A stretch of 64,000 nt of DNA from Polaromonas sp. (GTDB lineage: Bacteria > Pseudomonadota > Gammaproteobacteria > Burkholderiales > Burkholderiaceae_C), in contig JAURWY010000011.1 of NCBI GenBank assembly GCA_030654695.1, positions 1 to 64,000 of the forward strand, written 5' to 3'. The notes beneath the pieces were generated by a model that saw only the letters and a list, made by a program, of their open reading frames with translations, did no database searches and was not told where the DNA came from. Below are positions 44,031 through 64,000 of this stretch, piece after piece. Within the stretch, counting starts at the first letter, position 1. Each line of letters starts with the position of its first letter. The position numbers were made by a program, and so were the translations under genes.

Positions 44031-44048
44031 CTGTCACACTGTTGTCAC
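44031..44048 (+). promoter_or_regulatory. Pho box (PhoB binding site) of the pst operon
   Basis: CTGTCAC-ACTG-TTGTCAC is a direct repeat with 11-nt phasing that fits the PhoB consensus (CTGTCAT-N4-CTGTCAT) at 12 of 14 positions. A candidate -10 (CATAAA, 44057-44062) lies 8 nt downstream, the geometry of a PhoB-dependent promoter in which the box replaces the -35. An inverted copy, GTGTGACAA (44015-44023), lies just upstream. Confidence 0.85.
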
Positions 44049-44101
44049 ACAAGCGCCATAAAGTTCAGTTTGTTTTTCACGCATCAACCCAAGGGACTTA
44101 T

Positions 44102-45133: not shown

Positions 45134-45149
45134 TTCTGGGTCAACACAT

Positions 45150-45191
45150 AAACCCGTCGAGCTGCCCCAAGCAGGTCGGCGGGTTTTGTTT
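45150..45191 (+). terminator. Attenuator-like hairpin between pstS and pstC
   Basis: Arms 45150-45165 and 45171-45186 form a 16-position stem (14 Watson-Crick pairs, one G-U, one G-G mismatch) with loop CCCAA, followed by a broken T tract (TTTTGTTT). It should stop part of the pstS transcripts and protect their 3' ends. Confidence 0.8.
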
Positions 45192-45218
45192 CATATCTGA
45201 CAACCACAAGGTATTCAC

Positions 45219-46229: not shown

Positions 46230-46230
46230 G

Positions 46231-47091: not shown

Positions 47092-47133
47092 TTCACACGC
47101 ATTTATTCGCCTTCCAAAAACTTATTTTCAACA

Positions 47134-47922
47134 ATGGACCTGTCAATGGCTGAAACCACCACAGAACTGAAAAACGCCCTTGAGGTGCGCAACCTCAATT
47201 TTTATTACGGCAACTTTCGCGGTCTCAAAGACGTGACGATGAACATCGCTGAACGCAAGGTCACCGCCTTCATCGGCCCATCGGGTTGCGGCAAGTCAAC
47301 ACTGCTGCGCACACTGAACCGCATGTACAGCCTGTACCCTGGGCAGCGTGCTGAAGGTGAGATTAACTTTTATGGCAAAAACATTCTGGACAAAAGCCAG
47401 GACCTGAACTTGCTGCGTGCCCGCATCGGCATGGTCTTCCAAAAGCCAACGCCGTTCCCGATGACGATTTACGACAACATTGCCTTCGGCGTGCGTCTCT
47501 ACGACAACCTGAGCAAGAGCGACATGGACGAACGCGTTGAATGGGCGCTGACCAAGTCTGCATTGTGGAATGAAGTCAAAGACAAGCTCGGCCAGAACGG
47601 CCTGTCGCTGTCCGGCGGCCAACAACAGCGCCTGTGCATTGCCCGCAGCGTGGCGGTCAAACCCTCGGTCTTGCTGCTCGACGAGCCGACCTCGGCGCTC
47701 GACCCGATTTCGACCGGCAAGGTCGAAGAGCTGGTGCACGAACTCAAGCAGGACTACACCATCGCCATCGTCACACACAACATGCAGCAGGCAGCCCGCT
47801 GCAGTGACTTCACCGCCTATATGTACTTGGGTGAACTGATGGAATTCGGCTCGACTGAGCAGATTTTCTTCAAGCCCAAGCGCACCGAGACCGAAGACTA
47901 CATCACAGGAAGGTTTGGCTAA
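47134..47922 (+). CDS. pstB: Phosphate ABC transporter ATPase PstB
   Basis: A 262-residue ATPase with Walker [10 protein letters not shown] (48-56), Q-loop [16 protein letters not shown], signature [14 protein letters not shown] near 167-180, Walker [13 protein letters not shown] and H-loop [23 protein letters not shown] is PstB-specific. The C-terminal YITGRFG is the normal family end. ATG 47146 (MAETTTEL) is an alternative start. phoU follows 2 nt after the stop. Confidence 0.97.
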
Positions 47923-47924
47923 TC

Positions 47925-48626
47925 ATGAGCGAAAAACACATCTCCAGTCAGTTCGATGCCGAGCTGAACACCATCTCCACCAATGTGCTCGAGATGGGCG
48001 GGCTGGTCGAAGCCCAGCTGCACCAAGCGATTCACGCGCTGGTTCACATGAACTTGGCGTCCGCTGAGCAGGTGATTGAAAACGAAGCCAAGATCAACCA
48101 AATGGAATTGAGGATCGATCACGACATCATTTCCACCATTGGCCGGCGTCAGCCGACGGCACGCGATCTGCGTTTTTTGATGGCTATTTCACGGACCACG
48201 CAAAACTTGGAACGTGCCGGCGATGAGGTCGAGCGCATGGCCCGCATGGTCAAGTCCATCATCAAAAGCGGCTCGCCCCGCAACCTGCCCACCTCTGAGC
48301 TGCGCATCGCGGCTGACATGGCTGCGGCCTTGCTGCGCAAAACGCTCAATTCATTTGCACGTCTTGACACCAGCATGGCGGTAGCCATCATCAAAGAAGA
48401 CGACCAAATCGATGATGAGTACAACGGCTTCCTGCGCAAGCTCATCACCTACATGATGGAAGATCCCCGCACCATCTCACCAAGCTTGGACCTGCTGTTT
48501 TTAGCCAAGTCGATTGAACGCGTCGGTGACCACGCCAAAAATATCGCAGAACAAATCATCTTTGTCGTCAAAGGTGAGGACGTCCGTCACTCAGCATTTG
48601 AAAAGGTTGAGTTGGTCGTCAAATGA
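47925..48626 (+). CDS. phoU: Phosphate signalling protein PhoU
   Basis: A 233-residue all-helical peripheral protein made of two three-helix repeats. Each has the metal-binding E/D-x3-D motif: QMELRIDHDII near 60-70 and DDQIDDEYNGFLRKL near 160. It connects PstSCAB transport state to PhoR and keeps the Pho response off in high phosphate. The start MSEKHISSQFDAELNTI is typical. The stop overlaps phoB (ATGA). Confidence 0.96.
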   Translation: MSEKHISSQFDAELNTISTNVLEMGGLVEAQLHQAIHALVHMNLASAEQVIENEAKINQMELRIDHDIISTIGRRQPTARDLRFLMAISRTTQNLERAGDEVERMARMVKSIIKSGSPRNLPTSELRIAADMAAALLRKTLNSFARLDTSMAVAIIKEDDQIDDEYNGFLRKLITYMMEDPRTISPSLDLLFLAKSIERVGDHAKNIAEQIIFVVKGEDVRHSAFEKVELVVK

Positions 48627-49354
48627 GAAAACTACCCCGTGTCTTGGTGGTCGAAGACGAGCCTTCAATTGCCGAGTTGATTGCCGTCAACCTGCGGCAC
48701 AACGGCTTCTCCCCGATCGTCGTGTTTGACGGTGCAGCCGCTCAGCGAGAGGTTGACGCCGTGCTGCCTGACTTGATCTTGCTGGACTGGATGCTGCCCG
48801 GCGAGAGCGGGGCTACGTTAGCGCGGCAGTGGCGCAAAAGTGACCGGACAAAAACCGTTCCGATCATCATGCTCACCGCCCGCAGTGACGAAACAGACAA
48901 AGTGCAAGGCTTGGACGCGGGCGCCGACGACTACATCACCAAGCCTTTTTCGACCCAAGAACTGCTGGCCCGCATTCGTGCACTGCTACGCCGCCGCAGC
49001 CCAGAAATAGTCAAAGACTCGGTGCAGTTGGGTGAACTGACCCTAGACGCAGGGACTTACCGCGTCACTTTTCGCGGCAATGAACTCAAGATCGGGCCAA
49101 CCGAGTTCAAACTGCTGCACTACCTGATGAAACATGCCGAAAGGGTGCACACTCGCAGCACCTTGCTCGACAAGGTTTGGGGCGATCACGTCTTCATTGA
49201 AGAGCGCACTGTGGATGTCCACGTCAAACGCCTGCGCGAGTCACTGGGTGATGCCGCCAGCATGATCGAAACCGTGCGTGGCGCAGGCTACCGACTGACG
49301 GTTCAGAGCAGTGCCGGCAACGCAGGACGAGGCCAGCCCATTTCCGCCACATGA
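48623..49354 (+). CDS. phoB: Phosphate response regulator PhoB
   Basis: A 243-residue OmpR-family regulator. The receiver has the acidic pocket Glu11/Asp12, phospho-acceptor Asp55 in LILLDWMLPG, Thr/Ser in MLTARSDE and Lys in DYITKPFS. The C-terminal winged helix has GPTEFKLLHYLMKHAERVHT and RTVDVHVKRLRESLG. When phosphorylated by PhoR it binds Pho boxes, such as that at 44031 and the weaker one at 53935. It is coupled to phoU and phoR by ATGA overlaps. Confidence 0.97.
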   Translation: MRKLPRVLVVEDEPSIAELIAVNLRHNGFSPIVVFDGAAAQREVDAVLPDLILLDWMLPGESGATLARQWRKSDRTKTVPIIMLTARSDETDKVQGLDAGADDYITKPFSTQELLARIRALLRRRSPEIVKDSVQLGELTLDAGTYRVTFRGNELKIGPTEFKLLHYLMKHAERVHTRSTLLDKVWGDHVFIEERTVDVHVKRLRESLGDAASMIETVRGAGYRLTVQSSAGNAGRGQPISAT

Positions 49355-50670: not shown

Positions 50671-51214
50671 CGAGCACTTCCATCTTTTTCTGAAAGTGTG
50701 CAAGATCAGGCGTTGACGCTTTAGGCACCTTGGCTAGGTCATCGTAACGACGCAGTCGTACAGCCTCCTCGGCATAAGGCTGCGCGAGAAAACCAGCGAG
50801 TTCTTCGCTGGTGTAAGCACCACCTTGCAATTCAAGACTGCGTTGAGAGGCCGGTGACAAACTGGCCCAGTAAGTCGGTTCTGCCGCGCACAGGTAGCGC
50901 TTGGCATCGACATGCAGACGTATTGGCTCCAGCACGGCGTCAGGCAACAAGCCACGTAAAAATGGGATGGCGATGAACTGGTGCAAGTCGTCGCGTTGCT
51001 GCGTGTCGTCTAACCGTTCCTCTTTTTGGGCAGCGATGAGATGCCCTAGATCGTGCAGCAAGGCCGCCACCACAGTGGCATCGGTTTCACCTGCCATCTC
51101 AGCCAAATGTGCACACTGAAGCGCATGCTCCAGTTGGCTCACCGCCTCTCGGCCGTATTGACGCGTGGCACGGGTTTCAAAAAGATGAACGATGTCGGTG
51201 GTTGATAAAGTCAT
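50657..51214 (-). CDS. PhnZ-like HD-domain protein of the phosphonate locus
   Basis: A 185-residue protein of the phosphonate-operon HD family. Probable diiron ligands are His30, His54-Asp55 (HDLGH motif), His78, His101 and a C-terminal Asp. YGREAVSQLEHALQCA places Tyr20 and Glu23 three residues apart, as are Tyr24 and Glu27 that gate the substrate in PhnZ, and His58 corresponds to PhnZ His62 (from memory of PhnZ). It may therefore be a mixed-valence diiron oxygenase cleaving a C-P bond after alpha-hydroxylation, rather than a phosphohydrolase. No PhnY-type hydroxylase is in the window. ATG 51214 has AAGG upstream. It lies 10 nt after phnE. Confidence 0.8.
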   Translation of the reverse strand: MTLSTTDIVHLFETRATRQYGREAVSQLEHALQCAHLAEMAGETDATVVAALLHDLGHLIAAQKEERLDDTQQRDDLHQFIAIPFLRGLLPDAVLEPIRLHVDAKRYLCAAEPTYWASLSPASQRSLELQGGAYTSEELAGFLAQPYAEEAVRLRRYDDLAKVPKASTPDLAHFQKKMEVLVTAG

Positions 51215-51224
51215 GGCCAAGCCT

Positions 51225-52031
51225 TCAAATCAGAATTTTTCGGATGCGGGCAGAGACCAGGTCAATCGCCGTCACCGACACAATGATGATGATCATCACA
51301 GCGCAGGTTTCAGCGTACTGAAAGCCGCGAATGATCTCCCACAACACCACACCAATGCCGCCCGCGCCGACCATGCCCACCACCGAGGCTGAGCGCACGT
51401 TGCTCTCCAGTCGGTACAGCGTGAAAGAGATCCACAGCGGCATGACCTGCGGAATGACGCCGTAAACAATTTCATGCAGCGCACTCGCGCCGGTCGAACG
51501 AATACCTTCGACCGGCTGCGGGTCGATCGCCTCAACCGCTTCAGAAAACAGCTTGGCCAACACACCGGTGGTGTGTATCCAAAGTGCCAGCACGCCGGCA
51601 AACGGACCCAGACCAACGGCCACCACGAACAGCATGGCGAAGACCATCTCATTGATCGCCCGTGTGGCGTCCATCAGGCGACGCGTAGGTTGGTAGACCC
51701 ACCAAGGAACCAAATTGGCGGACGCCATCAAGGCCAGTGGTACGGCCGTGACAACAGCCAACGCAGTTCCCCACAAAGCGATTTGCAGGGTGATGACCAT
51801 CTCACCCACATACATACGCCACTGGCTGAAGTTGGGCGGGAAAAACTCAGCGGCGTAGGTCGCCATGTTGCCGGAGTCACGCACCAAATCGAGCGGCCGC
51901 ATATCGGCCCCTTGCCAAGACCCTGCCAACGCAATTAAAACGAATGCCCAGAGAAAATACCAAGTCAGGCTGCGCTTGGGCGCAGCCGCCTCGGCCATCA
52001 ACCGGTGCGAATGAGTAGCCGTTGATGACAT
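51225..52031 (-). CDS. phnE: Phosphonate ABC transporter permease
   Basis: A 268-residue inner-membrane permease. After an N-terminal cytoplasmic tail there are six helices. PhnE blocks are [59 protein letters not shown] and the ABC-contact loop [29 protein letters not shown], then [19 protein letters not shown]. These are quoted in shorter family pieces because the whole segment is conserved: GPFAGVLAL and VGAGGIG are the clearest. It overlaps the phnD stop by one base (TGATG). Confidence 0.94.
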
Positions 52032-52984
52032 CAGTTCAACGCAGCCAATTGCTTGTCAATGGCGGCCAGCTGCTCTTTTTTAGCGGCTTCAGAGATGACA
52101 GAATCTGACGCGATTTTGGTGCGTTTGCTGAACAAATCGAGTTGACGAATCGGCAGCAACTGACTGTTGCTGGACTCTTTGAAACCAGAGAGTTTTGATA
52201 TCTTCATCAAAACTTCTTTCTCACGGGAATCGGTTTTCCCATAGCTGTAAAAGAACTGCTTCAGCTTGGCCTTGGTGGCGGCTGGCATGTCTTTGCGCAT
52301 CACCAGCGGGTCAAGAGCGATCAAAGGTGATGTCCAGACGATTTTGATATCGTTGAACTTTTCTGGATAACGGTTTTGGACCTTCTCCAAGTTTTCGCTG
52401 TTGTTGGTGGCGACATCAACCTGCTTGTTGGCAACAGCCAATGCATTGGCTTCGTGGTTGGCGCTGCGGCTCACTCTGAAGTGCGTTTTAGGGTCAATTT
52501 GATTCTTTGCAAAGACATAAAAACCAGGCACCAAAAAGCCAGACGTCGAATTGGGATCACCATTGCCAAAGCTCAGGCTTTTTCCGTTCTTGAGGATGTC
52601 ATCCAGCGTGTTGTGCGGACTGTCCTTATGCACAATCAAATGCGAGTAGTAACCTTGCGAGCCATCGGCATTGACCATCTGCGCGAAGACCTCACCGCTG
52701 GCCCTGTCGACTGCCTCCATCGCAGACTTGTTGCCCAGCCAAGCCACATGCACTTTATTGAAGCGCATGCCTTCAATGATGCCGGCGTAGTCTGGCGCGA
52801 AGAAGGCGGTGACTTTCATGCCGGTCTGCTTCTCCATGTCTTTGATCAGCGGTTCCCAATCTTGTTTCAGATTCTGGGTTGACTCTGTCGAGATAATGCC
52901 GAAGTTGATGTCCTGAGCACTCGCGCCAAGCGACAAGCCCAGCGCAAAGGTCGTGGCCGTGATGGCCAATATTTTCTTAATCAT
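52031..52984 (-). CDS. phnD: Phosphonate ABC transporter periplasmic binding protein
   Basis: A 317-residue receptor with a Sec signal ([20 protein letters not shown], cleavage after ASA). PhnD features: [62 protein letters not shown] and the ligand-site [20 protein letters not shown] (Ser/Thr-rich phosphonate pocket). An AAGGA ribosome binding site supports ATG 52984. The frame to 53095 overlaps phnC and is rejected. It lies 31 nt after phnC. Confidence 0.94.
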
Positions 52985-53015
52985 CAAATCATTCCTTAAA
53001 TATTCAGTCAAAAAA

Positions 53016-53885
53016 TCAAGCGGCCTGAGCCAGTCCAGACTGCCACGCCGGTACGGCATTGGTAGCCGACGGCACCAGCGATACAGGGGCAGCATGCAGG
53101 CGTGTGGAGTCGGTCAGAATTTCGTCTACATGCACGCCATAAAGCTCGCGCAGCAGTTGCGGTGTCAGCAGCTTTGAGGGTCCATCAAAGACCACGCGGC
53201 CTTGGTGCAAGGCGACCACCCGAGGGCAATATTTCAGCGCCATGTCGACCTGGTGCAAAGAGACAATCACGGTGCAGCCGTCCTCGCGGTTGATGCGCGC
53301 CAAAATTTCCATCACGTTGCGCGAGGACTCCGGGTCCAGCGAGGCAATGGGTTCGTCAGCCAGCACCACCTTGGCACCCTGAACGAGTGCGCGAGCAATC
53401 GCCGCGCGCTGCTGTTGACCACCCGACAAGGTCGATGCCCGCTGGGCATGGCAGTCCGCAATACCGACGCGGGCCAGCGCATCAAGGGCTTGCGCACGCT
53501 CTTGCGCATTGAAAATGCGAAACAGACTGCGCCACCACGGCATGCGGTGCAATTGACCAACCAGCACGTTGACCAAGACCGGTAAACGATCCACCAAATT
53601 GAACTGCTGAAAGACAAAGCCGACGTTAGAGCGCACACGGCGAATGTCGTGGTGTATGCGACCGCCCTGCTGCACACGGCGACCGTCTATTTCGATCAAA
53701 GAGTCGGTGCGGCCATCGGCCGTGATCAAGCCAGACATGTGCCGCAGCAAGGTTGACTTGCCAGACCCAGACGCACCGATCAGCGCCACCATCTCACCCT
53801 TTTTCACGGAGATGTTGATGTCGCAAAGCGCTTGCTTGTTGGCGAAATATTTGTTGAGCTTGTGAATTCGAAGTGCCGCGTCCAT
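53016..53885 (-). CDS. phnC: Phosphonate ABC transporter ATPase
   Basis: A 289-residue ATPase. Walker A is GASGSGKST near 37-45, Q-loop [19 protein letters not shown], signature [17 protein letters not shown] near 150, Walker [16 protein letters not shown] and H-loop [19 protein letters not shown]. This last segment is PhnC-specific. Of two adjacent ATGs the second (53885) has the better spacing from AAGGAG. It heads phnC-phnD-phnE-HD gene, which has its own promoter region with a Pho box and a PhnF-type operator. Confidence 0.94.
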
Positions 53886-53902
53886 CATGAACTCCTTGTA
53901 AG

Positions 53903-53914
53903 TTGTCTAGACAT
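53903..53914 (-). promoter_or_regulatory. PhnF-type operator upstream of phnC
   Basis: TTGTCTAGACAT contains the perfect palindrome TGTCTAGACA and lies 18 nt upstream of phnC. It is nearly identical to the motif in the phnG-phnF intergenic region. The PhnF assignment is by this shared occurrence and by memory of the mycobacterial PhnF site (GTATAGAC core). Confidence 0.65.
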
Positions 53915-53934
53915 ATGGAGTCTCATCGTTGTCT

Positions 53935-53952
53935 GTGACGGTTTCATGAAAC
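53935..53952 (-). promoter_or_regulatory. Probable Pho box upstream of phnC
   Basis: On the minus strand GTTTCAT-GAAA-CCGTCAC matches the 7-4-7 PhoB repeat (11 of 14 positions, and the A-rich spacer). A further half-site, ATGTCAC, lies two repeat periods upstream. It sits 50 nt before phnC and 20 nt upstream of the PhnF-type operator. Confidence 0.55.
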
Positions 53953-53990
53953 TTAAAAGAAGCTTGTGTGACATGTATTGATCCGCGGCC

Positions 53991-55145
53991 TTACAGGACA
54001 CGACGACCTTCACGCCAGACCGCTCTCACGACGGCATGGCGACTGCCATTCGGCAGCGCCGCAATGTGAACCTGGATCAAGTCAGCCCGCAGGCCCACAG
54101 TCAGTTCACCGCGATCGGTCAGCCCTGTCGCCCGCGCTGGTGTTGAAGTCACTGTCGCCACCGCTTCCGGCCAAGTCATGACGCCCTGCTCCACCAAGCA
54201 CATCACGGCCGACAACAGACTGCCCGGCACATAGTCCGAAGACAGAATGTCGAGCAGGCCAAGCCTGGCCAGATCAACCGCCGCCACGTTGCCCGAATGG
54301 GAGCCACCACGCACCACGTTCGGCCCGCCCATGACGGTCTGCAAGCCGAGTTTGTGCGCCTCACGAGCCGCCGCCACGGTGGTCGGGAACTCCGACATGA
54401 TGGCACCTTCGGCATGCGCTTGCTGCACGTGCGCCGCCGTGGTGTCGTCGTGACTGGCCAAGGCAATGCTGTGCGTGCGACTGAAATCCACAAAATACCG
54501 ACGGTGCGGCTCTGCAAATTCGGCCTGCAGTTGACTGGCATGCGCCACTTGTTGCTCAAACTTCTGCTGGCTCCAGCCCTTTTTACCGGTGTAGTAAATC
54601 CGCGCCTGCTCGATGTTTTCCCACTGCCGCTGACCGGGTGTGTGGTCCATCAGCGAGATCAACGACAGCCGTGGATGACCGTGGAACGGCTCAAATAATT
54701 CGACCGTGTTGGGCGCCGGCAATTCGCAGCGCACGTGCAAGTGGTGGTCAGCGCGCAGCAAGTCTTGTTGGGTGCAGTTGTCCAGGGTGGCGATCACATC
54801 GCCCCAAGCGCTGCCACGCAAACTTTCTGGGTCGGCCTCACCGACGCCCAGCGCATCAAACACCGTGGTGATACCGGCAGCGGCGATCTCAGCGTCATGC
54901 GCGAGCAAAGCGGGCAACTCCGCCCAATGCACCTTTGGGCGGGGCATCAGGTGGCGCTCAAAATTGTCCGTGTGCATTTCCACCAGACCCGGCAATAAAT
55001 AATCGCCACCCAAGTCCACCGCAGCCAAGGCCGAGGTGTCGCCACCGACAGCACTGATACGGCCATTTTCTGCCTGCAAACTGCCGTGCACGACTTCACC
55101 CGGCAACACCATCTTGGCATTTTTAAAAATCACTGACGCGTTCAT
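53991..55145 (-). CDS. phnM: Alpha-D-ribose 1-methylphosphonate 5-triphosphate diphosphatase
   Basis: A 384-residue amidohydrolase-superfamily enzyme that removes pyrophosphate from the PhnGHI product to give the 5-phosphate substrate of PhnJ. The N-terminal metal motif differs from H-x-H as known for PhnM: LLPGLVEMHTDNFERHL. Further ligand regions are SLMDHTPGQRQ, ALASHDDTTAAHV and LDILSSDYVPGSLL (catalytic Asp). The start overlaps phnL (ATGA). It is the last gene of the phnG-M unit, 105 nt upstream of phnC, and no clear terminator is seen there. Confidence 0.95.
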   Translation of the reverse strand: MNASVIFKNAKMVLPGEVVHGSLQAENGRISAVGGDTSALAAVDLGGDYLLPGLVEMHTDNFERHLMPRPKVHWAELPALLAHDAEIAAAGITTVFDALGVGEADPESLRGSAWGDVIATLDNCTQQDLLRADHHLHVRCELPAPNTVELFEPFHGHPRLSLISLMDHTPGQRQWENIEQARIYYTGKKGWSQQKFEQQVAHASQLQAEFAEPHRRYFVDFSRTHSIALASHDDTTAAHVQQAHAEGAIMSEFPTTVAAAREAHKLGLQTVMGGPNVVRGGSHSGNVAAVDLARLGLLDILSSDYVPGSLLSAVMCLVEQGVMTWPEAVATVTSTPARATGLTDRGELTVGLRADLIQVHIAALPNGSRHAVVRAVWREGRRVL

Positions 55146-55867
55146 GCGATAGCCTTCATAGTCCTGAAATCAGCCACATTGATGCGGCGGGTGGCGACGG
55201 CGTCACCCACATGGGCGTCGTGAAAAATACCGACGATGGCGGCGCCGCGCGCACTGGCTTCGCGTATCAATTCGATGACGGTCTGTGCGTTCTCAGCATC
55301 CAGAGAAGCGGTCGGTTCGTCCAGCAACAGCAGCGGGCGCGGCTTGATCATGTTGCGAGCGATGTTGATACGCTGCTGCTCACCGCCTGAAAACGTGGCG
55401 GGCGGCAAATGCCACATGCGCTCAGGAATACGCAAACGCGTCAGCCAACGACTGGCCTCGGCACGTGCAGCAGCCAGCGTGTCTGGGTCGTCGCCGGCAT
55501 CTTCGAGCAAGGGTTCGGCCACCACGTCCAGCGCCGGCACCCGTGGGATGACCCGCAAAAACTGGCTGACATAACCTATCGAGTCTTTGCGCAAGCGCAC
55601 CAGTTCATGCGGCGAGGCGGTGGTCACTTCGATCGGCAGTTGGCCTGGCAAATGGAGGCTGATGCTGCCGGCGCTGGTTCGGTAGTTGGCATAAATCATT
55701 TTCAGCAAGGTGCTCTTGCCCATGCCGGAAGGTCCGTCCAGCACGATGCATTCGCCGGAGTGAACGCTGAGGTTGGCCTCGCCAAGAACCGCCAGCTCGA
55801 CGCCGTTTTGGTGATGCAGGGTGAAGCGTTTGGCCACCCCTTGAATGTGAAGCAGAGGGTGGGTCAT
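55142..55867 (-). CDS. phnL: C-P lyase system protein PhnL (ABC-type ATPase)
   Basis: A 241-residue ABC ATPase without membrane partners. Walker A is DGPSGMGKSTLLKMIY, the PhnL-specific RLRKDSIGYVSQFLRVIPRVPALDVVAEPL follows (recognised from its YVSQFLRVIPRV part), then signature FSGGEQQRINIARNM, Walker B LLLLDEPTASLD and H-loop IFHDAHV. It belongs to the C-P lyase complex accessory set. It overlaps phnK and phnM by ATGA. Confidence 0.94.
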   Translation of the reverse strand: MTHPLLHIQGVAKRFTLHHQNGVELAVLGEANLSVHSGECIVLDGPSGMGKSTLLKMIYANYRTSAGSISLHLPGQLPIEVTTASPHELVRLRKDSIGYVSQFLRVIPRVPALDVVAEPLLEDAGDDPDTLAAARAEASRWLTRLRIPERMWHLPPATFSGGEQQRINIARNMIKPRPLLLLDEPTASLDAENAQTVIELIREASARGAAIVGIFHDAHVGDAVATRRINVADFRTMKAIA

Positions 55868-56670
55868 GGTTGGAGTACCGAAGAAACAAGAAGTTGGGTG
55901 TAAGCGTGTTGCGGGTCGTCAAGCACTTGATCGGTCAGGCCGACTTCAACGATGCGGCCGCGCTGCATGACGATCATGCGGTGCGCCAGCAGGCGGGCCA
56001 CCGCGAGATCGTGCGTGACCACGATGGCCGCCAGTTGCATCTTGCGGGTGAGTTGGCGCAGCATGTCCAAGAGCCGCGCTTGCACCGAGACATCCAGCCC
56101 AGATGTCGGCTCGTCCATGAACACCAGGCGTGGTTGTGTGACCAAGTTGCGGGCGATTTGCAGGCGCTGCCGCATCCCGCCGGAGAAGGTGCGTGGTGCA
56201 TCGTCAATGCGCGCCACATCAATCTCGACACGTTCCAGCCATTCAGCGGCAACGCTGCGCAGCCGGCCGTAGTGACGCTCACCCTGCCCCATCAATCGCT
56301 CACCGACGTTGGCACCGGCCGAGACGTCCATGCGCAAACCATCAGCAGCGTTTTGGTGCACAAAGCCCCAGTCCGTGCGCGCCAGCAAACGCTGCTGCGC
56401 TTCGGTCATGGCGAAGACATCTTGCAGTCCCTCATGACGCGTCATGAAATGCACACTGCCGGCATCGGGCTGGCTGCGTGCCGCAATCGCATTGAGCAAG
56501 GTCGACTTGCCCGAGCCGGACTCACCCACCACCGCCAGCACTTCGCCGGGCCAGAGGTCAAAGGAAACGTCTTGCAGCGCGACGCGGTCGCCGTAGTTTT
56601 TGCCCAGACCGCGCACCTGCAGCAGGGGTGCCGGCGGCGCCGAAAAATGCGGAGATAAATTCATAGTCAT
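55864..56670 (-). CDS. phnK: C-P lyase system protein PhnK (ABC-type ATPase)
   Basis: A 268-residue ABC ATPase that docks on the PhnGHIJ core in E. coli. Walker A is [16 protein letters not shown], and a PhnK-typical Q-loop region RTDWGFVHQNAADGLRM, signature FSGGMRQRLQIARNL, Walker B LVFMDEPTSGLDVSVQARL and H-loop VVTHDLAVARLL follow. It is opposite in origin to transporter ATPases but resembles oligopeptide types. ATG 56670 lies one base after the GNAT stop; ATG 56664 is also possible. Confidence 0.94.
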   Translation of the reverse strand: MTMNLSPHFSAPPAPLLQVRGLGKNYGDRVALQDVSFDLWPGEVLAVVGESGSGKSTLLNAIAARSQPDAGSVHFMTRHEGLQDVFAMTEAQQRLLARTDWGFVHQNAADGLRMDVSAGANVGERLMGQGERHYGRLRSVAAEWLERVEIDVARIDDAPRTFSGGMRQRLQIARNLVTQPRLVFMDEPTSGLDVSVQARLLDMLRQLTRKMQLAAIVVTHDLAVARLLAHRMIVMQRGRIVEVGLTDQVLDDPQHAYTQLLVSSVLQP

Positions 56671-56671
56671 A

Positions 56672-57115
56672 TCAAGGTTCAATCACAAAACTCAGGCCGT
56701 GCTGGTCAAACCCGAGAGATTCATAAAATGCATGCGCCGCGTGGCGCTGGCGGTTAGACGAGAGCGCCAACTTGTAGCAACCAGCCGCACGTGCTTGGTC
56801 TTTGGCATGGCTCATCAACTGGCGGCCAATGCCGCGCCCCTGCTGATCGCTGGCCACCACCACATCTTCGACAACCGCCGACGGTGTGCCGCCATGCGCC
56901 AAGTTGTGCATGACCAAGAGCGCATAAGTGCCCAGCACCACCGCCCCGTCTGTGGCCACAAAAAGGCGGTAGCTCGGGTAGCGGGCGAACTCCGCGAATA
57001 TTTGTTGAGCCGCTTGTTCCGACAAAACGCTGCCGTTGTTGAAGTCAAGCTGCGCGTAAAGGGCCAACACCGCAGGCAGATCGGCCGTGTCAGCTTGCCG
57101 AATGACAAGGCTCAT
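56672..57115 (-). CDS. GNAT-family N-acetyltransferase inside the phn operon
   Basis: A 147-residue acetyltransferase. The acetyl-CoA motif A is VVASDQQGRGIGRQLM near 90-105 (Q-x2-G-x-G), followed by the motif B region AFYESLGFDQHGL. The start overlaps the phnJ stop (ATGA) and phnK follows after one nt, so it is a full member of the operon. E. coli PhnO acetylates aminoalkylphosphonates. This protein lies at a different operon position and sequence identity to PhnO is not obvious, so the role is by analogy only. Confidence 0.82.
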   Translation of the reverse strand: MSLVIRQADTADLPAVLALYAQLDFNNGSVLSEQAAQQIFAEFARYPSYRLFVATDGAVVLGTYALLVMHNLAHGGTPSAVVEDVVVASDQQGRGIGRQLMSHAKDQARAAGCYKLALSSNRQRHAAHAFYESLGFDQHGLSFVIEP

Positions 57116-58002
57116 GACGCATCCTGACGCGACTGGCAATAGTCAGAGTCCGAGCACACATGCATGCGGCTACCGCTGTCATCGGTGATGACCTCATCTA
57201 AAAAGCTGTCAGTCGCACCGCACAAGTCGCAGACCGCATCCCAGCGCTGCACTTCAAAAGGGTGGTCTTCAAAGCCCAGACTTTCAACCGAGGTGTAAGG
57301 CGGTACGGCATAAATACGCTTCTCCCGGCCGGCACCAAAGAGTTGCAAGGCCGGGTTCATGTGCATCTTCGGGTTGTCAAATTTCGGGATCGGCGAAGGC
57401 GCCATGATGTAGCGACCATTGACCAGCACCGGGTAGTCGTAGGTGGTGGCGATGTGGCCGTACTTGGCTATGTCTTCATACAGCTTGACGTGCATCAGCC
57501 CGTATTCGGCCAGCCCATGCAGGGTGCGAGTTTCAGTTTCACGCGGTTCTAGCCGCTGCATCGGCTCAGGCACCGGCACTTGGTAGACGATCACTTGGCC
57601 CTCTTGCAAAGGGATTTCAGGAATACGGTGGCGCGTCTGGATCAGCGTCGCTGCACGGGTGTGCGTGGTGGTTTCAACACCGGCCGTGCGTTCAAAAAAG
57701 CGCCGGATGTTGACGGCGTTGACGGTATCGTCTGAGCCTTGGTCAATGATTTTCAACACATCGTCAGGGCCAATGACCGCCGCCGTGACCTGAATCCCGC
57801 CGGTGCCCCAACCGTAAGGCAGCGGCATTTCACGCGAGCCAAACGGAACTTGGTAACCGGGAATCGCCACCGCCTTGAGCAGCGAGCGGCGGATCATGCG
57901 CTTGGTGCGTTCGTCGAGGTAAGCGAAGTTGTAGCTGGCCTGAACATCGTCTGTGGCCGTGTCCGACCGCAGCTCTAAACCGGCTTCTTTCAATGCGTTC
58001 AT
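57112..58002 (-). CDS. phnJ: Alpha-D-ribose 1-methylphosphonate 5-phosphate C-P lyase
   Basis: A 296-residue radical-SAM enzyme that breaks the C-P bond. Its non-classical cluster cysteines are Cys258, Cys261 and Cys283, with the thiyl-radical Cys289. The spacing x2, x21, x5 is identical to Cys241/244/266/272 of E. coli PhnJ. The N-terminal SYNFAYLDERTKRMIRRSLL, PFGSREMPLPYGWGTGGIQ and the GQVIVYQVPVPEP segment are strongly conserved. It is coupled by ATGA to phnI and the GNAT gene. Confidence 0.98.
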   Translation of the reverse strand: MNALKEAGLELRSDTATDDVQASYNFAYLDERTKRMIRRSLLKAVAIPGYQVPFGSREMPLPYGWGTGGIQVTAAVIGPDDVLKIIDQGSDDTVNAVNIRRFFERTAGVETTTHTRAATLIQTRHRIPEIPLQEGQVIVYQVPVPEPMQRLEPRETETRTLHGLAEYGLMHVKLYEDIAKYGHIATTYDYPVLVNGRYIMAPSPIPKFDNPKMHMNPALQLFGAGREKRIYAVPPYTSVESLGFEDHPFEVQRWDAVCDLCGATDSFLDEVITDDSGSRMHVCSDSDYCQSRQDAS

Positions 58003-59123
58003 GTTGTGACTCCGGTGTCTGGTTGGGCCGCTTTGGCGCTGGCCGCTGCGCGCATTTTTCGGATCAGTTCAAGCTCTGACTGAAAGTCAACGTAGTGCGG
58101 CAACTTCAAGTGCTGCACAAAGCCAGAGGCTTCGAGACTGTCACTGTGCGAGAGCACAAACTCCTGCATTTGTGCGGGCGACTCGATCGGCTCGCCCAAC
58201 TCGTCTGCACGCAACGCCCGGTCCACCAAGCTCATGGCCATCGCCTTGCGCTCGCTGTGGCCAAAGGCCAAGCCATAGCCACGGGTGAACTGAGGCGGCT
58301 CGGTTTTGCTGCCAGCAAACTGATTGACCATTTCACATTCGGTGATTTCGATGTCGCCAATCGAAATGGCAAAGCCGAGCTCTTCTGGTTCGATTTCAAT
58401 CGCAACTTGGCCCAAGCGAACCTCACCGACAAAGGGATGGCTGTGGGCGTAACCGCGCTGGGTGGAGTAAGCCATCGCCAACAGAAAACCCTCGTCACCG
58501 CGCGCCAAGTTTTGCAGCCGCGTGGACCGCACCGCCGGAAAACGCAAAGGCTCGCGGGTCAGGTCGACAGGAGACGGATCGCCCGGCGGGATCGGCCGGG
58601 TTTCAATCAAACCTTCATGGTTGAGCAGTTCCACCACGCGCGGTGTGACAGCAGCATCAACGCCTGTCGACAACACGCTGGCTGGGGTTTGAACATCAGC
58701 CGGTGCGTCTTGCCCGTTGGCCAACAAGGTGAAGTCGAGCAAGCGTTGGGTGTAGTCGTAAGTCGGGCCAAGCACCTGGCCGCCGGGCAGGTCTTTGAAG
58801 GTCGCCGAAATGCGCCGCTCCAGCGACATGCGATTGGTCTGCAGAGGTTTTGTCGTGCCCAAACGAGGCAAGGTGGCGCGGTATGCGCGCAGCAAAAATA
58901 TGGCCTCGATCAAATCCCCGGAGGCCTGCTTGATCGCCAGTGCAGCGAGTTCCGGGTCGTAGACCGAACCTTCGTTCATCACCCGGTCAACTGCCAGCTT
59001 GAGCTGTTGTTGAATCTGCGACACGCTGAGTTCGGGCAGTCGGTTGTCACCGCGCCGCTGCTCGGCCAGCAAGCGGTAGCTGTTGAGAATGGCGGTTTCC
59101 CCGCCCTTGACGGCAACGTACAT
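57999..59123 (-). CDS. phnI: C-P lyase core subunit PhnI
   Basis: A 374-residue subunit that, with PhnG, PhnH and PhnL, transfers the phosphonate to the ribose of ATP, releasing adenine. MYVAVKGGETAILNSYRLL is the canonical start. Conserved later parts include GYAHSHPFVGEVRLGQV and GYGLAFGHSERKAMAMSLVDRAL. ATG 59123 has GGAGGG 8 nt upstream, which lies inside the end of phnH; the in-frame TTG two codons earlier is less likely. It starts 2 nt after the phnH stop. Confidence 0.97.
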   Translation of the reverse strand: MYVAVKGGETAILNSYRLLAEQRRGDNRLPELSVSQIQQQLKLAVDRVMNEGSVYDPELAALAIKQASGDLIEAIFLLRAYRATLPRLGTTKPLQTNRMSLERRISATFKDLPGGQVLGPTYDYTQRLLDFTLLANGQDAPADVQTPASVLSTGVDAAVTPRVVELLNHEGLIETRPIPPGDPSPVDLTREPLRFPAVRSTRLQNLARGDEGFLLAMAYSTQRGYAHSHPFVGEVRLGQVAIEIEPEELGFAISIGDIEITECEMVNQFAGSKTEPPQFTRGYGLAFGHSERKAMAMSLVDRALRADELGEPIESPAQMQEFVLSHSDSLEASGFVQHLKLPHYVDFQSELELIRKMRAAASAKAAQPDTGVTT

Positions 59124-59125
59124 AC

Positions 59126-59761
59126 TCAAAGCCCTCCTGACAACTGAATGGATGTGGTGCGCGGCAAGCCGACCAGTTGCTGCGCCGAAGCCAGAAACAA
59201 GTCAACGCCACGCGGAAAGCTGGCGTGGTTGGTCGTCCACTGCGCGAGAAAATCAGCGGCCAAACCATCGACTGACACATGGTTGACGTCTTGAATGCCG
59301 GGGCCTTTGAGCGACCACTGCGCAGCGCCGCTCTCGCTGCGTGCCTTGGCATCTAACAGAGGCAAGTCCAAGACGCAGGTGGCAGACTGGTCCGGCGCGT
59401 TGTCGCTGCCCTGCGAAAAACTGGCCAGTGCGGGCATGGCGTCACCTGCGGCCACCCAAGCAAACATGGCTTGGTCAACGTGACTCACCAGCTGGCAACC
59501 AGTGTGAAAGCGAAGCCAAGCAGCGGCATCACTGTTCGCCAAAGAAGGCGACAGCCACAGCGTGCAGTCAGAGTCCAGCAGCGCCAGCAGCAAAGCTGCC
59601 GAAGCCGGGTGGCCGGTCTGCGGCACCTCGGCGTCGTGGCTGACCGTCATGCAGCGGCCAGGGTACGAAAGCGCTTCTAGCGCAACTCGAAACATCGCCT
59701 GACTGCCGAAGGCCTCATGCGTGAAGCCGGCACCGAGATTAGACAAATCGTGGGCGCTCAT
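59126..59761 (-). CDS. phnH: C-P lyase core subunit PhnH
   Basis: A 211-residue PLP-transferase-like fold protein without PLP. The N-terminal GFTHEAFGSQAMFRVALEAL, then SYPGRCMTV, and C-terminal FPRGVDLFLASAQQLVGLPR (the conserved FPxGVD...LPRTT) are typical. It is coupled to phnG by ATGA. Confidence 0.94.
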   Translation of the reverse strand: MSAHDLSNLGAGFTHEAFGSQAMFRVALEALSYPGRCMTVSHDAEVPQTGHPASAALLLALLDSDCTLWLSPSLANSDAAAWLRFHTGCQLVSHVDQAMFAWVAAGDAMPALASFSQGSDNAPDQSATCVLDLPLLDAKARSESGAAQWSLKGPGIQDVNHVSVDGLAADFLAQWTTNHASFPRGVDLFLASAQQLVGLPRTTSIQLSGGL

Positions 59762-60270
59762 GACGCCTCTCCTTCGTCGTCCGCCGAGCCTGACTCGCGG
59801 GCCACTGTGAAAAATTCAACCTTGGTGCTCTGCGCACGCTGCTCACGCAGGCTGCGCTGCAGCGCCAGATGTTGCCGCACCGGGCTCAACAAGGTTTGCT
59901 CCAGTAAATCCTGCTGCGAGCTGTCTTGCAACAGAGCGTCAGCGACGGCAGCGAGCCCGACTTGGCGGTGCGAGCGACCCAAGGCATAAGCCACACCGAC
60001 CACGGTGGTGTTCGCCTGAGTCCCCGACAAACGCAAGGCGCAGCGGCTGACAGTCACCTCGCCCAAGTTAAAGCGTTCACCCGTCGAACCTGCGCGCCCC
60101 TGCACCATCATCAAACCGGTTTCTGGCGCTCTGAGCCAATGCGGCTTGGTCGGCCAATGCGCGCCAACCGCCGACTCCAGCAAGTCCAGCGGTGCCCGTG
60201 ACAGCAAGGCCATCCAGTCAGCACGCACCATCGGTGGTGCTGGATCGTGATTGTCAAATGCATGAAACAT
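59758..60270 (-). CDS. phnG: C-P lyase core subunit PhnG
   Basis: A 170-residue subunit. Family features: RADWMALLSRAPLDLLESAV, PETGLMMVQGRAGSTGERFN and the GEVTVSRCALRL segment, followed by AYALGRSHRQVGLAAVADAL. The last contains the conserved GR..R...A. The in-frame TTG at 60300 falls inside the operator/promoter, so ATG 60270 is preferred, with GAGG upstream; ATG 60231 would also keep the conserved part. It is first gene of the phnGHIJ-GNAT-KLM unit. Confidence 0.93.
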   Translation of the reverse strand: MFHAFDNHDPAPPMVRADWMALLSRAPLDLLESAVGAHWPTKPHWLRAPETGLMMVQGRAGSTGERFNLGEVTVSRCALRLSGTQANTTVVGVAYALGRSHRQVGLAAVADALLQDSSQQDLLEQTLLSPVRQHLALQRSLREQRAQSTKVEFFTVARESGSADDEGEAS

Positions 60271-60288
60271 TCTGGTGATACCCTCAAG

Positions 60289-60318
60289 TTGTATAGACAA
60301 ATAAATTCACTTCGCCAA
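60289..60318 (-). promoter_or_regulatory. phnG promoter with overlapping PhnF-type operator
   Basis: On the minus strand: -35 TTGGCG (60318-60313), 17-nt spacer, -10 TATACA (60295-60290). The operator-like motif TTGTATAGACAA (60289-60300 on the plus strand) covers the whole -10. Bound repressor would block phnG transcription, and since phnF is divergent 45 nt away, it probably also controls itself. Confidence 0.75.
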
Positions 60319-60344
60319 GCTTAACGATCACATAAGTAGATTTC

Positions 60345-61097
60345 ATGACAACACTGACATCAGCTGCACCCAGCCTTGAGCGGCCAACCCGGGATAGTTT
60401 TTGGCACCGCATTGCAGCGCAGATTTCTGATGCCATCAGCAGCGGGACTTACCCGCCCGGTGAACGCTTGCCTTCAGAACATGCACTGGCCGAACAATTT
60501 GGCGTGAACCGGCACACCATTCGAAAGTCACTGGCGAGCTTGTCGAGCCAGGGCTTGGTGCGTGTGACCCAAGGCAGCGGTACCTACGTGGAAGACTTTG
60601 CGGTGGAACTGATGTTGGGCAAACGCACACGCCACCGACACAGCTTGGTTCAAGCCGGTTTACGCGGCGGTCTGCAAGTACTTGAGGCCAGCACCGTGCG
60701 GGCGAACAGTGCCCAAGCCAAAGCCTTGGCATTGACTGCACGCAGCAAGCTGTTGTGCTTGAACGTACTGGGCGAAGCTGAAGGCCAAATTTTGCATGTC
60801 AGTGAGCGCTATTTCCCGCTGCCACGCTTCAACGGACTGGACGCCGTGATCGCTGAAACAGGCTCGATCACTGCGGCCTTCGCAGCCTGCGGATTGACCG
60901 ATTACACCCGGCAGGAAAGCCGCATCACAGCTCAGACTCCAACGGCAGCCATCGCTGCGCACTTGCGCCAACCTGTTAGCAGGCCGGTGCTGGAAGTGAC
61001 CAGCGTCAACGTCGACAGCGCGGGAACCCCGATTGAATTTTCAACGACTTGGTTTGCCGGTGACCGAGTCAAACTAACCATACGCCACGATGACTAA
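60345..61097 (+). CDS. phnF: PhnF, GntR/HutC-family regulator of phosphonate genes
   Basis: A 250-residue repressor-type regulator. The N-terminal GntR winged helix-turn-helix runs FWHRIAAQISDAISSGTYPP, GERLPSEHALAEQFGVNRHT, IRKSLASLSSQGLVRVTQGS to GTYV. The C-terminal UTRA ligand domain (about 95-245) ends with IEFSTTWFAGDRVKLTI. It is divergent from phnG and shares the operator region. It overlaps the DUF1045 gene by 8 nt. Confidence 0.93.
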   Translation: MTTLTSAAPSLERPTRDSFWHRIAAQISDAISSGTYPPGERLPSEHALAEQFGVNRHTIRKSLASLSSQGLVRVTQGSGTYVEDFAVELMLGKRTRHRHSLVQAGLRGGLQVLEASTVRANSAQAKALALTARSKLLCLNVLGEAEGQILHVSERYFPLPRFNGLDAVIAETGSITAAFAACGLTDYTRQESRITAQTPTAAIAAHLRQPVSRPVLEVTSVNVDSAGTPIEFSTTWFAGDRVKLTIRHDD

Positions 61098-61803
61098 CGC
61101 CCTGCTCACGCCCTATCGATTTGCGGTTTACTTCGCACCACCGCCAGACAGCCCGTGGTGGCAAGCCGGCAGTCAGTGGCTCGGACGCTGCGCTGCAGGC
61201 AGTGCGGTCAAACCCATGCCTGCGGTCAACGGCATCAGCGACGAGGCGTTCCGTCAAGTGACCGCCGCGCCGCGCCGCTACGGTTGGCACGCGACGCTGA
61301 AGGCTCCCTTCAGCTTGGCTCCTGGTGCAGATGTGGCTCAGCTGCGAGAAGCACTCCAAACGATTTCCGCAAGCGCCAGCACCTTTGAAATGCCGCCGCT
61401 CAAAGTCACACTGTTAGATGATTTTCTAGCCATCGTGCCGCAGCCCCGCAGTGCAGCAGCCGAGGCCCTGGCAGCAAGATGCGTCATGGAACTGCAACCT
61501 TTGGCTGCAGCGCTGTCAGCAACCGAGTTGCAACGCCGGCGGCAAGCACAGCTGTCACCCGCACAAGATGCGCTGCTGGAACGCTGGGGCTATCCCTTCG
61601 TATTGGATGAATTTCAACTCCATTGCACACTGACAGGCTCACTCAAACACCTGAACTCGCAGCAAGTGCAAAGCCTGCAACAGGCCGCGCAAGACAGGTT
61701 CGCCAACTTGCCACCCTGCAACTTTGAATCACTGGCGCTGTTCGCAGAACCCACGCGAGGTGCAGACTTCGTGCTGCAAGAGCACTTCAGGTTTACCGCG
61801 TGA
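61090..61803 (+). CDS. DUF1045 phosphonate-metabolism protein, 2H phosphoesterase type
   Basis: A 237-residue protein of the DUF1045 family that recurs in phn loci. Two H-x-T motifs, His67-Ala-Thr69 in GWHATLKAPF and His178-Cys-Thr180 in LHCTLTG, give the 2H-phosphoesterase active site. These enzymes open 1,2- or 2',3'-cyclic phosphates. In the C-P lyase route the 5-phosphoribosyl 1,2-cyclic phosphate product must be hydrolysed; E. coli uses PhnP, absent from this window. It may fill that step. It overlaps phnF and phnN. Confidence 0.85.
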   Translation: MTNALLTPYRFAVYFAPPPDSPWWQAGSQWLGRCAAGSAVKPMPAVNGISDEAFRQVTAAPRRYGWHATLKAPFSLAPGADVAQLREALQTISASASTFEMPPLKVTLLDDFLAIVPQPRSAAAEALAARCVMELQPLAAALSATELQRRRQAQLSPAQDALLERWGYPFVLDEFQLHCTLTGSLKHLNSQQVQSLQQAAQDRFANLPPCNFESLALFAEPTRGADFVLQEHFRFTA

Positions 61804-62372
61804 ACCATCGCCTGATTTATGTGATGGGCCCGTCAGGTGCAGGCAAAGACAGCCTGCTCGACTGGCTCAAATCCAAACTACCCCCGCAGTCGCCCATCCA
61901 CTTTGCCAAGCGCACCATTGACCGACCACTGCAAGCACAGGGCGAGCAACACGAAAGCGTGGACAGCGACACCTTTGAGCGCTTGCAAAAGGAAAAGTCA
62001 TTTGCCATGCACTGGCTTGCCAACGGCAGACAGTACGGCGTGCGACATGGCGAGCTGGAGCCGCTGAAGCTGCATCAATGGTTGTTGGTCAACGGGTCCC
62101 GAGCCTACCTGCCGGAAGCATTGCGTCTGTTCGACGGTTTGACCGTGTTGCACATCACCGCCAGCGCGGACATTCTTCGCGCTCGACTGTTGGCTCGTCA
62201 ACGCGAAACGCCTGAGGCGGTTGAAGCACGCGTCCAACGCGCCGTCGCTTTCAGCGTGCCGACGTCTTGTCGTTGCGTGAATGTCTTGAACGACACCAGC
62301 CTTGATGATGCTGGTGCCGTGTTGATGAAGGCACTGGCATTGATGCCAGGATGGGCCGCTAAAAATCAATGA
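61800..62372 (+). CDS. phnN: Ribose 1,5-bisphosphate phosphokinase
   Basis: A 190-residue guanylate-kinase-like enzyme that phosphorylates ribose 1,5-bisphosphate to PRPP, returning the C-P lyase sugar to metabolism. The P-loop is GPSGAGKDS (10-18), followed by FAKRTIDRPLQAQGEQHESV (the KR.I.RP motif) and ARLLARQRETPEAVEARVQRA. GTG 61800 overlaps the DUF1045 stop (GTGA). The 94 nt between it and the convergent hutU contain no gene or clear terminator. Confidence 0.94.
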   Translation: MNHRLIYVMGPSGAGKDSLLDWLKSKLPPQSPIHFAKRTIDRPLQAQGEQHESVDSDTFERLQKEKSFAMHWLANGRQYGVRHGELEPLKLHQWLLVNGSRAYLPEALRLFDGLTVLHITASADILRARLLARQRETPEAVEARVQRAVAFSVPTSCRCVNVLNDTSLDDAGAVLMKALALMPGWAAKNQ

Positions 62373-62466
62373 CTTGCGCAGAGCCGGGGGGCGCCGCGTC
62401 ATCCAGACCAACCTAGGCAGGGGTGTGCTGGAGTTGACGCAGTTGAGACGGGAGCTAGGGTCCAAT

Positions 62467-64000
62467 TTAGCCATTAATCATGGGTAAATTGAGTCCTTGC
62501 TTCTTAGAAGTTTCAATGGCCAGCTCATAGCCCGCGTCTGCATGCCGCATGACGCCTGAGCCGCAGTCGTTGACCAGCACATTGGCCAAGCGTGCGGCGG
62601 CTGCATCGGTGCCGTCCGCCACGATGACCATGCCGGAGTGCTGCGAGTAACCCATGCCCACGCCGCCACCGTGGTGCAGGCTGACCCAGGTTGCGCCGCC
62701 TGAGACATTCAACATGGCGTTGAGCAACGGCCAGTCGCTCACTGCGTCGGTGCCGTCTTTCATGCTCTCGGTTTCGCGGTTGGGGCTGGCCACCGAGCCA
62801 GTATCCAGGTGGTCGCGGCCGATCACAATGGGGGCCTTGAGTTCACCATTCTTCACCATCTCGTTAAACGCCAACCCTGCAATGTGGCGCTCGCCCAAGC
62901 CCAGCCAGCAGATGCGGGCGGGCAGGCCCTGGAACGCAATGCGATCACGCGCCATGTCAAGCCAGCGATGGGTGTGCAGGTTGTCGGGGAACAGCTCTTT
63001 GATTTTGGCATCAGTCTTGTAAATGTCCTCAGGGTCGCCGGAAAGTGCCACCCAGCGAAATGGCCCTTTGCCTTGGCAAAACATGGGGCGAATGTAGGCA
63101 GGCACAAAACCGGGGAAATCAAAGGCGTTGGCAACGCCCATGTCTTTCGCCACCTGTCGGATGTTGTTGCCGTAGTCCACCGTGGGGATGCCCATGCTTT
63201 GAAAGTCCAGCATGGCCTGCACATGCACGGCACACGATTTGGCGGCATCGTTGGTCAGTTTTGCGTGCTGCGTGGGGTCGCGCTGAGCAGCCTTCCACTC
63301 CGCCACGCTCCAGCCAGCAGGCAGGTAGCCGTTGATCAGATCGTGTGCAGAGGACTGGTCGGTCACTAGGTCGGGGCGAATGCCTCCGGCTTTGACGCGT
63401 TTGACCAGTTCTGGCAACACTTCGGCTGCGTTTCCCAGCAGGGCAATGGAGATGGCTTCTTTGGCTGCGCAATGCTGCTGGATGAGACGCAGGGCATCGT
63501 CAATGTCTTTGGCTTGTTTGTCCACATAGCGGGTGCGCAAGCGAAAGTCGATGGAGCTTTGCTGGCACTCGATGTTGAGCGACACGGCACCGGCCAGTGT
63601 GGCGGCCAATGGCTGCGCGCCACCCATGCCGCCCAAACCGGCGGTCAAGATCCAGCGGCCCGCCCAGTCGTTGTTGTAGTGCTGGCGGCCGGCCTCCACA
63701 AAGGTTTCGAACGTGCCTTGCACAATGCCCTGACTGCCGATGTAAATCCAGCTACCAGCGGTCATTTGTCCGTACATGAACAGACCCTTGCGGTCGAGTT
63801 CGTTGAAGTGCTCCCAGTTGGCCCACTTGGGCACCAAGTTGGAATTGGCGATCAGCACGCGTGGCGCGTTGGCATGGGTTTTGAACACGCCCACGGGCTT
63901 GCCGGATTGCACCAGCAGGGTCTCGTCGTCGTTCAATTCCTTGAGGGTTTCGAGAATTTTGTCAAAGCATTCCCAGTTGCGCGCGGCACGGCCAATGCCG
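62467..64000 (-). CDS. hutU: Urocanate hydratase, N-terminus outside the window
   Basis: The frame stays open to position 64000, giving 511 residues of the C-terminal side of urocanase, the NAD-dependent second step of histidine breakdown. The first visible residues ([16 protein letters not shown]) are already conserved urocanase sequence. [28 protein letters not shown] (NAD loop), the catalytic-region [12 protein letters not shown] and the C-terminal [17 protein letters not shown] are diagnostic. A TTG at 63936 looks like a start, but upstream codons are clearly part of the protein. No other hut gene is in view. Confidence 0.97.

Follow-up and report, generated by a model that had tools for sequence, protein, structure and literature searches.

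How are the genes of phosphonate breakdown controlled where the C-P lyase and the transporter form two predicted transcripts and the regulator gene, phnF, is divergent from them? The phn locus of Polaromonas sp. (contig JAURWY010000011.1) raises this question, and we explored it in the whole stretch of 64,000 nucleotides that was analysed, hereafter the window. On the minus strand the gene order is phnG-H-I-J-(GNAT)-K-L-M, followed by a gap of about 100 nt that holds a second operator, by phnC-D-E and by an HD oxygenase gene; in the opposite direction run phnF, a DUF1045-type phn gene (TIGR03223, just under the cut-off) and phnN. PhnF is encoded together with C-P lyase genes, phnGHIJKLM and phnCDE all lying within the window, and the pst genes, together with phoB and phoR, lie at about 44100-50670, convergent with the phn genes. 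Pst-pho genes near phn are also seen in two other loci (L126 and L129). Rfam gave no match in 50000-64000. From the arrangement of sites in this locus and its relatives, we consider it likely that the two phn transcripts arise from two PhoB-dependent promoters, each overlaid by one PhnF operator. The genes and operators concerned are the following:

60345..61097, plus strand: phnF, a predicted repressor of the GntR/HutC subfamily (TIGR02325, 197.5 bits against a cut-off of 156.8)
59758..60270, minus strand: phnG, which heads the lyase transcript phnGHIJ-GNAT-KLM (TIGR03293, 140.8 bits against 89)
53016..53888, minus strand: phnC, which heads the transporter transcript phnCDE-HD (TIGR02315, 303 bits against 266.1)
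48623..49354, plus strand: phoB, the response regulator expected at Pho boxes (TIGR02154, 321.2 bits against a cut-off of 296.2, the only gene of the genome above it)
60289..60300, minus strand: predicted PhnF operator of the phnG promoter, TTGTATAGACAA, in the phnF/phnG gap (minus strand TTGTCTATACAA, then CTT)
53903..53914, minus strand: predicted PhnF operator of the phnC promoter, TTGTCTAGACAT, before phnC (minus strand ATGTCTAGACAA, then CTT)

The two 12-mers, which the initial annotation had placed at 60289 and 53903, were confirmed directly in the sequence. Allowing up to one mismatch on both strands, TTGTMTAGACAW gives five matches in the window at three places (17010, 53903, and 60289), against a mean of 0.41 matches in the shuffle control, where none of 100 shuffles reached five. 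Over the whole 3.45 Mb genome the exact operator pattern occurs three times, and its reversed control not at all. Two of these exact sites are the phn sites, as expected if matches were to occur only at phn genes, but the third (G000:C29:68680), between hutC and a livK-like gene, is a HutC operator, and the expectation holds for two sites out of three. A GT-N4-AC palindrome with the core GTMTAKAC, the general operator consensus of the GntR/HutC subfamily (PMC4494728), is satisfied by the window's GTATAGAC and GTCTAGAC.

The operator shared by phnG and phnC, allowing up to two mismatches, is kept in relatives. We compared 81 loci, that is, the window and the best 80 of 294 confirmed PhnF-relative loci, the 80 being mostly titled as Comamonadaceae genera and some to a higher rank only; phnG precedes a divergent phnF in all gene orders listed for them. 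Beside phnG the operator is found in 81/81 loci, 71 exact to TTGTMTAKACAA, four with one mismatch and six with two, and its distance from the estimated start of phnG is 18-24 nt throughout (19 nt in 61). Before phnC it is found in 61 of the 65 loci where phnC could be tested, the other 16 having no phnC in reach; none of these sites is exact to TTGTMTAKACAA, 53 have one mismatch and eight have two, and no site within two mismatches occurs at phnC in L119, L138, L143, and L145. In two cases the phnC site is as far as 122 and 127 nt from the estimated start of phnC, whose start codon is probably misjudged there. Exact TTGTMTAKACAA sites in the loci of the 80 relatives lie, in 70 cases out of 70, no more than 400 nt from phnF, phnG, phnC or phnM. 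For the promoter profiles the 80 phnG rows were reduced to 74 distinct sequences by dropping duplicates and sites with more than two mismatches, and L143 was left out, its phnF and phnG being 7.8 kb apart in the annotation used; the relatives are akin, so that neither the 74 phnG nor the 61 phnC promoters count as independent events. One locus titled Akkermansia muciniphila (L136) is probably a mislabelled bin, its PhnF match values being identical to those of Limnohabitans Rim28 (L137).

Across the family, PhnF exceeds its cut-off in 19 of 200 genomes. A first survey left 12 of the 19 PhnF-bearing loci without a site at up to one mismatch; seven of the 12 carry a changed operator, discussed below, two, which are copies in one genome, carry another variant, and in the remaining three (L047, L049, and L053) PhnF is present with no recognisable operator near phnF/phnG or phnC. 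Pho-box-like elements stand before phnC in these three loci.

Where, then, would the two transcripts begin? The initial annotation had laid the phnG operator over the -10 of a well-spaced sigma-70 promoter, TTGGCG-N17-TATACA, which as a rival to our reading amounts to a PhoB-independent phnG promoter whose -10 is covered by PhnF. TTGGCG and TATACA do stand literally on the minus strand of the window, 17 nt apart. In 52/74 distinct relatives TATACA is intact, a consequence of the operator sequence; a hexamer resembling a -35 (at least 4/6, at a spacing of 16-18 nt) occurs in 16/74 (22%), twice the rate of shuffles (11%). Each hexamer, however, agrees with the consensus at only 4/6 positions, TTGGCG is kept at that spacing in 3/74 distinct relatives, and the operators TTGTCTAGACAA, TTGTATAGACAA, and TTGTCTACACAA are without TATACA. 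Conservation at phnG points further upstream, where a TANNNT is kept in 74/74. Thus, this promoter is probably wrong, and phnG transcription of the PhoB-independent kind seems to us unlikely. No terminator-like sequence or sigma-70-like promoter was seen in the two small gaps scanned. The promoter scan lists nothing in 60255-60365; its rule demands a -35 as well as a -10 that ends in T as its sixth base, and so it misses promoters of the Pho type proposed here.

For the latter, a Pho-box profile was built from the pstS promoters of the family (28/30 used), where the Pho box is followed by TANNNT at exactly 10 nt in 27/30, and was applied to the 80 nt before each operator. The pstS of the window provides an internal positive control, its -10, TAAAGT at 44059-44064, standing 10 nt after the Pho box. 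The elements are as follows:

44031..44048, plus strand: Pho box of pstS, CTGTCACACTGTTGTCAC, the internal positive control (a one-mismatch match in the genome scan)
60334..60351, minus strand: predicted Pho box of phnG, TTGTCATGAAATCTACTT, from the pstS-trained profile
60318..60323, minus strand: predicted -10 of phnG, TAAGCT (TANNNT exactly 10 nt after the box in 74/74 distinct promoters)
53935..53952, minus strand: predicted Pho box of phnC, GTTTCATGAAACCGTCAC, from the pstS-trained profile
53919..53924, minus strand: predicted -10 of phnC, GAGACT (NANNNT exactly 10 nt after the box in 61/61 distinct promoters)

The predicted Pho box of phnC in the window is convincing: its profile score is 11.2 (mononucleotide-shuffle P 0.002), and by plain consensus it agrees at 10/14 positions, a value reached by about 4% of dinucleotide shuffles. 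Among the distinct phnC promoters, 61/61 exceed the 95% mononucleotide-shuffle level under the pstS profile and 52 exceed the 99% level. The geometry of a PhoB promoter (two 7-nt repeats 11 nt apart, with the -10 at 10 nt) is present at phnC, though with no TANNNT; the phnC hexamers (CACACT, GAGACT and similar) are poor -10 elements, and 0/61 begin with T. The Pho box of phnG in the window is weak, with a profile score of 3.9 (mononucleotide-shuffle P 0.038) and a plain-consensus agreement of 8/14, reached by about 46% of dinucleotide shuffles; under the pstS profile, 74/74 distinct phnG promoters lie above the 95% mononucleotide-shuffle level and 55 above the 99% level. The phnG box also overlaps the start codon of phnF (ATGACA), so that its conservation may partly be that of coding or ribosome-binding sequence, which weakens the Pho inference at this promoter. 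Binding of PhoB at 60334-60351 could, given the same overlap, also affect phnF transcription. In the distant lineage described below, the phnG Pho box stands before the likely phnF start or only touches it, and the arrangement box-N10-NANNNT is clean in 4/7 loci and off by one in L062, the best profile match in L063 and L064 being the operator. By plain consensus, box-N10-hexamer is recovered in only 70/74 phnG and 53/61 phnC promoters. The gap between hexamer and operator varies, from 15 to 18 nt at phnG and from 2 to 7 nt at phnC, with one phnC promoter at 17. A genome-wide Pho-box search with three mismatches was discarded as too loose: its match counts were 304 and 314, those of the reversed control 250 and 221. 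Since Pho-box-like elements occur at both promoters and phoB-phoR lie in the window, repression by PhnF seems to be added on top of Pho control.

The identity of the repressor is a separate matter. One GntR regulator had been proposed for both phn transcripts, acting by steric block; the identity of PhnF, the shared and conserved operator and its parallel change in a distant lineage sustain the single regulator, but not the block at a phnG -10. The 12-mer alone cannot name this regulator, since it is found beside HutC-like genes, beside PhnF or beside neither: TTGTMTAKACAA is present in 48/120 genomes of the family, and the 30 family loci returned for it have a HutC-like neighbour in 19 cases, PhnF in three and neither in eight. 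In favour of PhnF at the phn sites, the phn site is the only exact site of the genome in G001, G014, and G085. One genome (G078) has 20 places with exact TTGTMTAKACAA, and the others of the 120 have at most four.

HutC might therefore, besides PhnF, also act at the phn operators, a histidine-phosphonate cross-regulation that would be compatible with PhnF and Pho control together. The HutC of the same genome and family belongs to the same subfamily as PhnF, has the operator core TTGTMTAKACAA in common with it and, like PhnF, has no equivalent of Arg38 (see below); besides the frequent HutC-like neighbours, TTGTATAGACAA is identical at phn and at the hutC/livK divergon, 8.4 kb from phn (G000:C29:68680-68691; L012 6681). 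That divergon, where HutC adjoins histidine-utilisation genes, has a second site, TTGCCTATACAA (G000:C29:68783-68794; L012 6784), and the phn sites do not behave as HutC operators by position: they adjoin phnF/phnG and phnC, and hutC has two sites of its own. The flanks differ as well, with GT commoner than CTT around HutC-linked sites. A CTT flank, on one side or both, is found at 60/67 phnG and 55/60 phnC sites against 7/34 HutC-linked sites, and a GT flank, counted likewise, at 4/67, 14/60, and 24/34, respectively; in the genome of the window, CTT flanks both phn sites and GTA stands on both sides of the exact hut site. As a full separator of PhnF from HutC sites the flanks were rejected, the overlap being partial. 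No hut genes were seen beside phn in the loci of the 80 relatives, some of them not long enough to reveal such neighbours; among those that are, the idea of a conserved hut-phn neighbourhood gained no support.

The distant lineage bears most directly on this point. Its PhnF is 35-42% identical, and its phnG core is changed to GTCTAGATGAC in 6/7 loci and to ATCTAGATGAC in L064; at phnC the changed core GTCTAGATGAT is found in 3/3 loci examined (L054, L057, and L060), the phnC of L063 being at the edge of its stretch and the stretches of L056, L062, and L064 containing none. The HutC sites of this lineage, in contrast, keep exact TTGTMTAKACAA in 5/7 genomes, with one mismatch in G197 and no site found in G091. 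The operator has changed in parallel at phnG and phnC, which points to PhnF as the binder of both, and we favour PhnF as the regulator at the phn sites. Action of HutC at the phn operators seems to us quite unlikely, although some cross-binding may occur in the genome of the window.

The binding residues are in keeping with this picture. NagR reads G at -5 by Arg38 and G at -4 by Arg48 (PMC4333415), and in the HutC subfamily the equivalent of Arg38 is correlated with the base at -5 (PMC4494728). The PhnF of the window conserves the recognition-helix arginine, as R56, and has His46 where DasR has Arg; HutC, with Arg38 and Arg48 matched by spacing, has Ala where NagR has Arg38. The window sites carry T at -5 and no G, which agrees with the missing Arg38 equivalent in PhnF and HutC, and R56 together with His46 is consistent with sites that have G at -4 but T, not G, at -5. 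PhnF has its subfamily and the recognition-helix arginine in common with NagR and DasR (dre sites) and differs from NagR at -5, where Arg38 and G are replaced by His and T. The NagR and DasR operators presumably have the GTCTAGAC core in common with the phn sites.

Under the reading that we prefer, two PhoB-dependent promoters each overlaid by a PhnF operator, phosphorylated PhoB (PhoB~P) would bind the Pho box at low phosphate and bring RNA polymerase to the -10 hexamer, which lies 10 nt further downstream. When a phosphonate, or a metabolite derived from it, is absent, a PhnF dimer would occupy TTGT-MTAK-ACAA. Transcription generally starts about 7 nt after the -10 hexamer, and on this rule the start sites would fall near 60311 for phnG and, inside the operator, near 53912 for phnC. 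The phnC operator would then extend from about -3 to +10, covering the start and blocking polymerase binding or opening; the phnG operator, from about +11 to +23, would lie just inside the transcribed region, like a downstream operator of the LacI type, and block promoter escape or early elongation. Ligand binding by PhnF would release both operators, giving an AND-NOT logic in which phn expression requires both low phosphate and the release of PhnF. Autoregulation of phnF through the gap operator may be a further consequence. That the gap operator serves phnF autoregulation only, leaving phnG under PhoB alone, we regard as improbable: its place between the two divergent genes, 44 nt upstream of phnF in the window, and the TATAGA that it shows when read on the phnF strand speak for this view, yet its distance to phnG stays within the same few nucleotides (18-24) in 81/81 loci, and phnC, which is remote from phnF, is preceded by the same operator. 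Finally, chance matches to a loose palindrome, which a short core and the other one-mismatch palindromes might suggest (the match at 17010 in the window and three genomic ones beyond the phn-hut region, all inside stop-to-stop frames of more than 100 codons), can be practically dismissed, the pattern being rare genome-wide, its position conserved and the relatives already contradicting them.

How does this arrangement compare with known systems? In Escherichia coli, the C-P lyase and transporter genes are described behind a Pho box upstream of phnC (PMC10574752), and phnCDEFGHIJKLMNOP form one cluster with phnF inside (PMC7866108). Here, in contrast, there are two predicted transcripts, a divergent phnF and an operator at each promoter. 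The control logic had been set apart from the E. coli pattern in the initial annotation, rightly as regards the divergent phnF and the two transcripts; the contrast with Pho control is misleading, both promoters being Pho-box-like with a pstS-like geometry (strong at phnC, weak at the window's phnG). In Mycobacterium smegmatis, PhnF is reported as a GntR-family repressor of phnDCE with two sites in a divergent promoter region (PMC7866108). Like the PhnF of the window, it belongs to the GntR family and is encoded beside a phn operon, but it controls a phosphate transporter, whereas here C-P lyase and transporter transcripts are the predicted targets. Its operator we take to be TGGTATAGACCA. In RegPrecise, a PhnF phosphonate regulon has been propagated computationally to Pseudomonas stutzeri RCH2 (PMC5299692).

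A PhnF repressor, an operator of the GntR/HutC type and Pho control of phn are each already known. A 2023 review knows of no transcriptional control of C-P lyase activity other than Pho, though it suspects another, and also cites PhnF as a repressor of the PhnCDE transporter (PMC10574752); in Variovorax xiamenensis, likewise of the Comamonadaceae, control of phn is described as phosphate dependent, and methane release driven by methylphosphonate has been shown (PMC12226003). Promoters of C-P lyase genes that combine a Pho box and a PhnF operator appeared in none of the titles and abstract openings of the literature searched, which is no proof of absence. What seems new is the combination of two split phn transcripts, each bearing a predicted Pho box together with a predicted PhnF operator whose position differs between the two, a layout that relatives conserve. 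As a candidate for dual control in Comamonadaceae, these composite promoters are both concrete and conserved, and they predict that methane would be released from methylphosphonate only at low phosphate with PhnF released. We further suggest, tentatively, that within one regulon of two PhoB-activated promoters the position of the PhnF operator, over the transporter start in one and downstream of the lyase start in the other, might set different thresholds, the lyase possibly staying off until substrate has entered, so that uptake would precede cleavage; the core identical to that of HutC might add a histidine input.

Two further genes of the locus deserve mention. Between phnJ and phnK stands a GNAT gene (56672-57115) that is phnO-like, at 50.9 bits against 142 and so far under the cut-off. 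After phnE lies a phosphonate-type HD oxygenase gene (50657-51220; TIGR03276, 224.4 bits), and a second phosphonate-cleaving route, by way of this oxygenase, may share the control of phn.
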